From positions 1-35,813 of the forward strand of contig JAAYMU010000022.1 in assembly GCA_012521215.1 (NCBI GenBank): DNA of 35,813 nucleotides. The letters are read 5' to 3'. Below are positions 17,194 through 20,301 of the stretch, in pieces. The stretch's first letter is position 1; every line of letters starts with the position of its first letter. The notes under the pieces were generated by a model, which was not told the DNA's origin, searched no databases, and was given only the letters and a program-made list of their open reading frames with translations. This DNA is from Peptococcaceae bacterium. GTDB taxonomy: Bacteria > Bacillota > Desulfitobacteriia > Desulfitobacteriales > Syntrophobotulaceae. Position numbers and translations under genes: made by a program.

Positions 17194-17544
17194 TTATAGA
17201 TCAGTTAAACCAAGACTGATTTCGATAGCTTCATCAACTCTGAGCATAACTTCTTCATCAAGAACAGCCACTTTTTCTTTGAGCCGACTTTTGTCAATCG
17301 TTCTTATCTGCTCGGCTAAAATTACCGAGTCTCTTTCCAGTCCGCTTCTTCTGGCTTTTACTTCCACATGAGTGGGAAGTTTGGCTTTGGTAATTTGTGA
17401 GGTTATGGCAGCTATAATGGTTGTAGGACTGAACTGATTGCCGATATCATTCTGAATTACCAGAACCGGACGGGTACCGCCTTGTTCTGAACCAACAACG
17501 GGGTTTAATTCAGCATAAAAAATTTCCCCACGTTTAATATTCAT
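17194..17544 (-). CDS. ndoA: mRNA interferase EndoA (MazF/PemK toxin)
   Basis: A sequence-specific ribosome-independent endoribonuclease of about 116 residues. [23 protein letters not shown] opens the MazF fold; the conserved [12 protein letters not shown] and [10 protein letters not shown] carry the residues expected at the active site. The ATG at 17544 has GGAG 8 bases upstream; the in-frame ATG at 17574 lies within the antitoxin gene and would add 10 residues. It overlaps the antitoxin gene by 11 bases, the usual coupled antitoxin-toxin arrangement. The pair corresponds to ndoAI-ndoA of Bacillus. Confidence 0.95.
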
Positions 17545-17821
17545 ATCCGCCACTCCAAGCCAATTTCCTTTCATAGCGAATTGTTGCTTCTTCTTCAGCT
17601 TGGCATAAATCCTTGGCTAAAGTGAGATTTATCTGAGCCATTTCCAAATAACCCTGTCGCATTTGTTCTCTTAACCCGGCTTTGCGCCGTTCTAATAAAA
17701 CACTGTAAATAGCTTCTTTGATAAAATCACTTCGATCTCTCTTTTCCATGGATACAATATCGTCGACTTCTTCGATGATATTCTCCGGTAAACATACTAC
17801 AATACGTCTTGTTTCCGCCAA
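17534..17821 (-). CDS. ndoAI: Antitoxin EndoAI (ribbon-helix-helix)
   Basis: Partner of EndoA; a ribbon-helix-helix (CopG/Arc-like) DNA-binding protein that also neutralises the toxin. The N-terminal strand [18 protein letters not shown] and helix [18 protein letters not shown] match EndoAI. The acidic, amphipathic C-terminal half would wrap the toxin. I choose TTG at 17821 with GGAGG 8 bases upstream; a GTG at 17830 overlaps that site. A strong consensus promoter lies about 70 bases upstream. In Bacillus this pair follows alr; here no alr is adjacent. Confidence 0.92.
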
Positions 17822-17887
17822 GTGAGGCACCTCCTAGATTAAAGGCCGGTTTTCTCAGGCAATAGCCACTCTTTATAAGTATACTTT

Positions 17888-17990: not shown

Positions 17991-18728
17991 CTAGCTAAAC
18001 CTTTTGACAATAGCTTTGTGGGCTCTTATTTCCAAACTATCATCCAACATTCTAAGGTCAGAATTATAGTCCCTGCGCTTTAAGGCCGCTCTCAATATAT
18101 TGTCCGCCAGATGAGGGTTTTTGGGCAGAAGAGGTCCTTGCAGATAAGTGCCCCAAACATTTTTGTACCTTACTCCTTCCAAACCGTCTTCCCCGTTATT
18201 ACCATAGCCCCGAACAATCTCCGCCAGGGGACTAAGTCCCGACCCCAGATAGGTTTTACCGGCATGATTTTCAAATCCGACCAGGGTGTTAAGGTCCGTC
18301 TTACTATGAGCGGGATTGGCAACTTTAGCGATTACATTGCCGATCATTCTTTTAGAGCCGGCTACCGTATAATAGTCTATAATTTCCAACCCCGGAACTT
18401 TATGACCGTCGACTGTCTGATAGTATTTACCGAGGAGTTGGTAACCCCCGCCAATTGCCAGGACCACCAAACCGTCCTCCACAGCTTGCTTCAATTCTTG
18501 GGCCCTGGAGCTTAGGTCCTGAATCAGAAAATTTTGTTCCCGGTCCGAACCTCCGCCCATAAAAAGAATATCCCCTTGGGTAAAATCTATATTTTCCCCA
18601 AGGCTAACCGGGTGAATCTGCAAATCGATATCTCGCCATCGGCACCTGGCCTTAAAGGTCAAAAGGTTTCCCCTGTCCCCGTAGAAATCCAGCAGATCGG
18701 GATAAAGATGGTACAATGTCAACTTCAT
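17991..18728 (-). CDS. gatD: GatD-family lipid II amidotransferase subunit lacking catalytic Cys and His
   Basis: GatD is the glutaminase partner of MurT; together they amidate the D-Glu of lipid II. The 245 residues align well with the family: IGGGSDREQ-like text appears as FMGGGSDREQN, and GFENHAGKTY is present. The nucleophile loop, normally xCGGYQ, reads AIGGGYQLLG (Gly93 in place of Cys; codon GGC). The conserved TYLHGP near the C-terminus reads GTYLQGPLLPKN (Gln, codon CAA, for the catalytic His). Two independent losses argue against one sequencing error. The protein may be a scaffold, may use free ammonia, or may have a different role. Its ATG overlaps the murT stop by 4 bases. Confidence 0.9.
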   Translation of the reverse strand: MKLTLYHLYPDLLDFYGDRGNLLTFKARCRWRDIDLQIHPVSLGENIDFTQGDILFMGGGSDREQNFLIQDLSSRAQELKQAVEDGLVVLAIGGGYQLLGKYYQTVDGHKVPGLEIIDYYTVAGSKRMIGNVIAKVANPAHSKTDLNTLVGFENHAGKTYLGSGLSPLAEIVRGYGNNGEDGLEGVRYKNVWGTYLQGPLLPKNPHLADNILRAALKRRDYNSDLRMLDDSLEIRAHKAIVKRFS

Positions 18729-20179
18729 AAACCTTCCACCTCAGTGTGACTGATTATCGGACTGGAACTTACCTTTTTGCTGTTTAAAATTTCCCTGAGC
18801 GGGAAGAGGGCCGTATAGGTAGGTAAAACGAAAACGACTTCATTAGGTAATATTTGCTTGGCTTCCAGCTCAGCCACCGCTTCTTTCAGATTCTTATTTA
18901 TACTTATCAGGTCTTCGCTCCAGTCGGCGTATTTCAATCTTAAGGCCATATCCTCGGCTCTTAAACCGGAACAGATTACTGTTTTCAGTTTAAGCCCGTC
19001 GGAAACAAGCCTTTCAAAATCCACATCCCATAACCAGGAAATATCACGGCCGTCGGCGGCAAGATCATTAATAGCCAGTAGCAAATGCATAGGTCTGCCC
19101 AGTTCGATAAGGGTACTGACCACCTGGTTAAAACCCGTGGGATTCTTAACCAAAGTAAGCGTAAGTTGACAAGAGGGGAGAGCAAATTGCTCCATTCTTC
19201 CGGCATCGGAAACAAACTTAAGCAGCCCTTGTTTACAATCCTCCCTGCTGAGGCCTAAGCATTCGGCAGCACTCACAGCTGCCAGGGCATTATATAAGTT
19301 GTAATAACCTTGAAGGGGGATTAAATATTTCCCTGTTTCTTGAGTAACAGTTTGACTGCCATAACTGTCCCCTTCTCTGTACTCCGGACGAATTGACAGA
19401 CGAAAAGATATCCCGTTCTGCTTTTGTCGAACTTCCCGAGCTTCAATATGGGGTTGAGGACGTTTAAAGCCGCATTGTTCACAGCGGTAAATACCAAGCT
19501 GACCATAATGAAAAATTTCATAAAATAGTTCATGGCCGCAAGGCAAACAGTATCTGCCTTCCCTTGATTCCGGGTTTTTTGACCCGCTTACCGGCAGGCT
19601 TGCAGCACCATAATAAAAAGCTTGGGTTCGATTTAGACCGATTTGAGCTACCAGTGGGTCATCAGCATTGAGAATAAGTTTGGTGGAAGGAGGCAGGGCC
19701 TCTTGAACTAGTTTTATGGTAGTATCAAGCTCCCCGAAACGGTCAAGCTGATCAGGAAAAAAATTGGTTACTACTGCCCATCCGGGCGTTAACTGTCGGC
19801 ATAAGCGGGGAACTGTAGCCTCATCCACTTCCAAAAGTAAATAGCTTTTTTTTACTCGGCCCCCAAAAGAAGTATTTTGCAGCAGGGCTCCTGCAATTCC
19901 GGGAAGCATATTAGCTCCTTCCCGGTTAAAAGCAACTGTTTTGTCAGCTGTTTTCAAGATGGAAGCCAGCATATTATTCGTTGTGGTTTTGCCGTTGGTT
20001 CCGGTAATTAAAACAATCTCCCCTTGGAAAGAAGTGCCCAAAAACTTGATAAAATCGGGACACACTTTATTAGCTACCAGCCCCGGGAATGTTGTTCCTT
20101 TCTTCCCGAGAATTCTAAGTGCTATGGATATTAATTTTCCTGACCATAAAGCAAGCCAGAACCTTATGCGCATTCCCAT
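18725..20179 (-). CDS. murT: Lipid II isoglutaminyl synthase subunit MurT (Mur-ligase fold)
   Basis: An ATP-dependent Mur-ligase-like enzyme that activates the D-Glu carboxylate of lipid II for amidation. The P-loop LITGTNGKTTTNN is clear. A zinc-ribbon insertion (CLPCGHELFY then CEQCGFKRPQP) is a MurT hallmark, and the C-terminal domain (DUF1727) contains LAINDLAADGRDISWLWD. I place the start at the ATG at 20179, with AAGGGG about 10 bases upstream. The frame is open to a TTG at 20287, but that codon has no ribosome binding site and the extra 36 residues are not typical. It is co-transcribed with gatD. Confidence 0.94.
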   Translation of the reverse strand: MGMRIRFWLALWSGKLISIALRILGKKGTTFPGLVANKVCPDFIKFLGTSFQGEIVLITGTNGKTTTNNMLASILKTADKTVAFNREGANMLPGIAGALLQNTSFGGRVKKSYLLLEVDEATVPRLCRQLTPGWAVVTNFFPDQLDRFGELDTTIKLVQEALPPSTKLILNADDPLVAQIGLNRTQAFYYGAASLPVSGSKNPESREGRYCLPCGHELFYEIFHYGQLGIYRCEQCGFKRPQPHIEAREVRQKQNGISFRLSIRPEYREGDSYGSQTVTQETGKYLIPLQGYYNLYNALAAVSAAECLGLSREDCKQGLLKFVSDAGRMEQFALPSCQLTLTLVKNPTGFNQVVSTLIELGRPMHLLLAINDLAADGRDISWLWDVDFERLVSDGLKLKTVICSGLRAEDMALRLKYADWSEDLISINKNLKEAVAELEAKQILPNEVVFVLPTYTALFPLREILNSKKVSSSPIISHTEVEGL

Positions 20180-20271
20180 TTTAAGCAATCCCCTTAATTC
20201 TGCTCCAAATAAAAAAAAGTTGTAATAATAGATAATATAACCTAACAAACACTTCTTTAAAAGTCCCGGTC

Positions 20272-20301
20272 TGGACAAAAAGCGCAATTAGATTCTATAA
20301 T
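20272..20301 (+). promoter_or_regulatory. Putative promoter of the carbonic-anhydrase-like gene
   Basis: On the plus strand TGGACA (20272-20277), an 18-base spacer and a perfect TATAAT (20296-20301). The leader would be about 75 bases. The site sits in the divergent gap shared with murT. Confidence 0.5.

Follow-up and report, generated by a model that had tools for sequence, protein, structure and literature searches.

A GatD homologue without its catalytic cysteine and histidine in a Peptococcaceae genome that has lost most of its glutaminase sites

Amidotransferases are generally regarded as drawing their nitrogen almost universally from glutamine, and channelling is assumed to be needed as free ammonia is scarce. 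Single ammonia-adapted amidotransferases are already known. The closest to the case presented here is the MurT/GatD pair of Staphylococcus aureus. There, MurT without GatD is inactive with either donor, the pair can use NH3 at pH 8.5 and fails to do so at pH 7.5, and the GatD C94G mutant has lost its glutamine activity while keeping full NH3-dependent MurT activity at pH 8.5 (PMC3266927). Glutamine-driven activity is also lost or nearly lost, with folding intact, in the C94S and D349N mutants, D349 of MurT being the third member of the GatD triad (PMC6113224). Tetrapod CPS1 has retained its amidotransferase domain with a replaced nucleophile and takes its nitrogen from ammonia (PMC4655335, PMC7657897); in the human protein, the Ser present instead of the nucleophile Cys explains that the enzyme is ammonia-only (PMC4655335). 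In PurF, loss of the N-terminal Cys abolishes glutamine use and ammonia use stays, and for an archaeal homologue, PurF', which lacks the active-site Cys, ammonia dependence was raised as a possibility (PMC3261824). Lastly, evolutionary exchange between glutamine and ammonia donors is known in the NAD synthetase family (PMC3376133).

The window analysed here, i.e. the whole stretch of 35,813 nt from a Peptococcaceae bacterium, carries a gatD gene overlapping murT (Table 1). Family scans and comparison with PDB entries leave little doubt as to its orthology to GatD: the GATase_3 Pfam domain was matched at 2e-36 and S. aureus GatD (PDB 5n9m) at an E value of 2e-56, and the best NCBIfam models were those of GatD/MurT, with scores under the strict equivalog cut-offs. 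The AlphaFold model, derived from a 21-sequence alignment, had a pLDDT of 91; the closest structures were the GatD proteins of S. aureus, S. pyogenes and S. pneumoniae, the top match being 5n9m (TM 0.89). The nucleophile region of the translation reads VLAIGGGYQLLG, with AIGGGYQLLG as the nucleophile loop, and the late motif is TYLQGP (within GTYLQGPLLP). When aligned with S. aureus GatD (PDB 5n9m/6gs2), G93 falls on C94 and Q197 on H189. The claim of the initial annotation that both the catalytic Cys and the catalytic His are missing was thus borne out, and so was its description of a complete murT with a zinc ribbon: the Mur ligase middle and C-terminal domains, the P-loop, the Cys4 ribbon and the catalytic Asp are all kept. 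The true murT start is probably downstream of the annotated TTG since homology to MurT begins only near Met37-Met39. Immediately downstream of gatD is a gene pair that, by sequence, resembles the MazEF/EndoA toxin-antitoxin system.

Table 1. Features of the gatD-murT region, and other amidotransferase sites of the same genome (G000; G001, sister species; G002, third species of the genus)
Feature	Position in window	Strand	Sequence and state	Contig of G000	Evidence or occurrence
gatD	17991..18728	-	245 aa; class I GATase fold (MurT/GatD type); catalytic Cys and His both missing		family scans, alignment, AlphaFold model
GatD Gly93	18450..18452	-	codon GGC (read 18452-18450), nucleophile position (S. 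aureus GatD C94)		alignment; relatives TGT/TGC
GatD Gln197	18138..18140	-	codon CAA (read 18140-18138), catalytic His position (S. aureus GatD H189)		alignment; relatives CAT/CAC
murT	18725..20287	-	520-aa ORF from TTG, 4-base overlap with gatD		
MurT nucleotide-binding motif	19985..20002	-	GTNGKT, residues 96-101, intact		
MurT Cys4 zinc ribbon	19472..19549	-	C247, C250, C269, C272, intact		
MurT Asp415	19043..19045	-	equivalent of S. aureus MurT D349, intact		alignment; PMC6113224
MazEF/EndoA-like pair	17194..17830	-			by sequence
CobQ, class I			VGGGYQ, Cys to Gly	C108	also in G001; Cys in G002
CbiA, class I, two copies			AEGGGY in both, Cys to Gly	C54, C107	also in G001
CarA of pyrimidine operon, class I			GIGLGHQ, Cys to Gly	C156	all three species of the genus
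PurQ, class I			GISNGFQ, Cys to Ser	C87	also in G001; Cys in G002
GuaA, class I			most of glutaminase domain gone, including Cys loop; synthetase SGGVDSS intact	C121	
hisH, class I			cleanly deleted between hisB and hisA		also in G001; G002 has hisH with Cys
GlmS, class II (Ntn)			start MGVFGYIG versus MCGIVGYIG	C34	also in G001
NadE nitrilase domain			ELSEDLW, Cys to Ser	C10	Gly in G001; Cys in G002
Second GatA, amidase-signature fold			without catalytic Lys and Ser nucleophile; first GatA intact	C110	all three species of the genus

Both its ancestry and its partner therefore mark the gene as a GatD, but two defining catalytic features fail; judged by sequence, it is best classed as a pseudo-glutaminase form of GatD and not as a functional glutaminase subunit. 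By analogy with the S. aureus C94G and C94S mutants, glutamine-dependent lipid II amidation by this GatD is predicted to be negative. The likeness to the S. aureus system (PDB 6gs2, 6h5e) extends to the gene pair, the fold, the MurT motifs and the Asp, and the Cys-to-Gly change is identical to that of the C94G mutant. Wild-type S. aureus, in contrast, uses glutamine, and the natural case described here has also lost the His, together with most other glutaminase sites of the genome.

The distribution of the two changes was followed in an alignment of 87 GatD sequences (that of the window and 86 others). A Cys occupies the nucleophile position in 81 of the 86; 80 of these have the His as well, and the remaining one is broken before it. 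The two nearest sampled species of the genus (88% and 75% GatD identity) have both residues, so that a genus-wide change, the clade-sharing which the initial annotation had proposed to look for, is rejected, and the GatD change is recent and specific to this genome; it is known from one metagenome assembly. Among the sampled genomes of the same family, the Cys is kept everywhere outside one other genus (g11). Five other Cys-less GatD were found. Three are from genomes of genus g11 (G012, G017 and G020; L179, L180 and L181), with Gly at the nucleophile and the His position lost; the fourth, from an Eggerthellales MAG (L103, 6001-6723), has Gly for Cys and Tyr for His; the fifth, from a rumen Clostridia MAG (L099, 6001-6717), has Gly for Cys and retains the His. 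The replacement was Gly in all Cys-less GatD of the sample; because the S. aureus structure shows C94 as a Ramachandran outlier (PMC6113224), Gly would be a natural substitute at this strained turn. In genus g11, GatD lacking both residues has a dN of 0.08 for a dS of 1.07 between two species, and murT adjoins gatD in G012, the genome in which the neighbourhood was read. These proteins have been long kept by purifying selection; that a GatD incapable of Cys/His glutaminase activity is still maintained argues for a structural role.

A second gatD, which the initial annotation had suggested searching for, was looked for and none was found in the genome (2.5 Mb, 96% complete), hence redundancy through an intact copy is rejected. 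The search gave two weak matches, CobQ and CbiA, both of which are themselves Cys-less amidotransferases. When the amidotransferase families were searched one by one, about nine further glutamine-splitting sites, belonging to four unrelated folds, proved to be lost or deleted in the same genome, with intact synthase partners (Table 1). The sister species has the CobQ, CbiA, CarA, PurQ, GlmS, second GatA and hisH losses in common with it. GltB and AsnB were found neither in this genome nor in that of the sister species, and are present in the third species and in others; TrpE/PabB (anthranilate/aminodeoxychorismate synthase component I) is absent from the genome. In the neighbouring genera except g11, the nucleophile is kept in every CobQ, CbiA, CarA, PurQ, NadE and GlmS that was compared. 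The sites that remain intact are those of the CTP synthase PyrG (GICLGMQ, HPE), of PurF (ECGLFG) and of the first GatA copy. Since these are present alongside two glnA genes, glutamine synthesis and some use of glutamine persist, which counts against a switch of donor; the two glnA genes also lead to the rejection of glutamine synthetase loss as the cause.

A few additional observations concern other sequences of the family. The third species has a CarA paralogue (C135, L056) with Gly at the nucleophile, and a further one (L063) with Cys. In genus g11, parallel losses are seen in G017 and G020, where CarA is without Cys and His (L271, L272) and where PyrG (L260, L261) has Phe for His and retains the Cys.

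For the GatD of the window, we consider it likely that the protein is a structural pseudo-glutaminase letting MurT use free ammonia, as one step in a lineage-wide change from glutamine to ammonia. GatD would fold and pair with MurT but could not hydrolyse glutamine, as neither the nucleophile (Cys to Gly) nor the catalytic His (to Gln) is left. As an ATP-dependent Mur-type ligase, MurT would activate D-Glu of lipid II at its alpha-carboxyl and amidate this group with free ammonia, GatD being required, by analogy, as the structural partner of MurT. Such a scaffold function enabling ammonia use by MurT was demonstrated with the mutant of the homologue and is expected here. Of the three options offered by the initial annotation, free ammonia combined with a structural GatD thus fits best, given that S. 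aureus C94G keeps its NH3 activity and that MurT alone is inactive. The non-glutaminase role it claimed is well supported; selection for the change, which it also claimed, is no better supported than relaxed constraint.

Its third option, loss of amidation, would make GatD an early pseudogene and MurT an idle enzyme, with D-Glu instead of D-isoglutamine in the peptidoglycan. Both catalytic residues are indeed gone and, of 138 GatD sites conserved in four other genomes, 7 have changed on this branch versus 1 on the sister branch, an excess that is suggestive only (p 0.07-0.12). We nevertheless hold this outcome to be unlikely: the GatD frame is open, the motifs of MurT are intact, the dN/dS values against the sister species (0.14 for GatD, 0.19 for MurT) place both genes under purifying selection, neither of them decaying freely, MurT displays no excess of changes at conserved sites (3 versus 4), and Cys/His-less GatD persists under purifying selection in the three g11 genomes. 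Full retention of the GatD fold would also suit a protein that has acquired another activity or a new Cys/His pair, but of all the explanations this is the one we find hardest to credit: the alignment offered no candidate for a new pair and no new Cys or His in the two places, the sole remaining Cys, C29, is common to relatives that also have the catalytic one, and gene order and the overlap with murT are maintained. An error of sequencing, assembly or binning appears very improbable as well, even though the assembly is metagenomic, in 234 contigs, and shows two irregularities. The GlmS contig (G000:C34, L201) is 99.96% identical to its counterpart in the sister assembly (G001:C75, L210) over the whole 5.2 kb, for species otherwise at a dS of about 0.3, and the purQ contig (G000:C87, L108) aligns with G001:C25 (L109) as a mosaic, at 98.3% identity in some parts and 93.5% in others. 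Both irregularities may be due to gene flow or cross-binning, and for that reason the GlmS and PurQ losses, firm for the genome pair, are less so for this genome alone. To produce the gatD sequence, an error would have to consist of two transversions placed precisely at both catalytic codons of an otherwise clean ORF. Besides, the CobQ, CarA, CbiA and hisH losses occur in both assemblies, and those of CobQ, CarA and CbiA are not copies of one error because the genes show normal synonymous divergence from the sister (dS 0.26-0.33; 0.37 for NadE). Other cysteines are unaffected: PyrG, PurF, the four ribbon Cys of MurT and cysteine clusters elsewhere in the window are intact, so that a systematic bias against Cys codons is rejected.

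From the genome-wide pattern, it would seem that glutamine has been largely abandoned as nitrogen donor in this lineage, in favour of free ammonia. In the fuller form of this reading, which we favour with somewhat less confidence than the one proposed for GatD, the lineage would have disabled or deleted, step by step, most amidotransferase glutaminase sites (class I, class II (Ntn), nitrilase and amidase-signature) and would run amide and amino transfer directly on free ammonia with the synthases kept; among these losses, that in GatD would be the latest, and another genus of the family would be following a parallel path. The donor in vivo would then be ammonia and the niche ammonia-rich, and the advantage may lie in the ATP saved on glutamine (glutamine synthetase). 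Neutral decay, where the synthases are already saturated by intracellular ammonia and losing the sites brings no benefit, is compatible with the same ammonia mechanism; we regard it as quite possible, without being the account on which we would settle. The stepwise losses differ between the sisters (Ser in one NadE and Gly in the other; GatD affected in this genome only), and the suggestive excess of GatD changes on this branch points the same way, but the repeated Cys-to-Gly or Cys-to-Ser changes and clean deletions such as that of hisH could equally have been favoured, and the data do not discriminate between decay and adaptation. As to the proposed niche, the two relatives bear the names of Peptococcaceae MAGs of one series (AS21, AS09), presumably the biogas-reactor set of PMC7038595.

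Compared with the systems described so far, what differs is the extent. CPS1 is one enzyme adapted to ureagenesis, with no genome-wide pattern. The ammonia-using NAD synthetases described are single-domain proteins, whereas here the nitrilase domain is retained with Ser or Gly for its Cys. The archaeal PurF' proteins are additional PurF-like proteins of putative function, whereas PurF is here among the few intact sites. Two of these comparisons weigh against the ammonia reading: S. aureus MurT/GatD accepted NH3 only at the higher of the two pH values, and the GlmS of E. coli is not known to accept ammonia, so that a form without the Cys would have to be altered in some other way too. In the open-access papers searched, no report of a genome-wide loss of this kind was found, and nothing relevant on this trait in papers on relatives or digester genomes; a lineage shedding most of its amidotransferase glutaminase sites in four folds would be what is new.

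The interest of the finding comes mainly from this genome-wide pattern, seen in metagenomic assemblies. A single organism would offer GatD/MurT, CobQ, CbiA, CarA, PurQ, NadE, GuaA, HisF and GlmS in natural and probably ammonia-only forms, for which the third species of the genus supplies natural controls. It would become testable why CTP synthase and PurF keep glutamine, whether the glutaminase domains serve a structural purpose, and whether energy-limited anaerobes save ATP by using ammonia.
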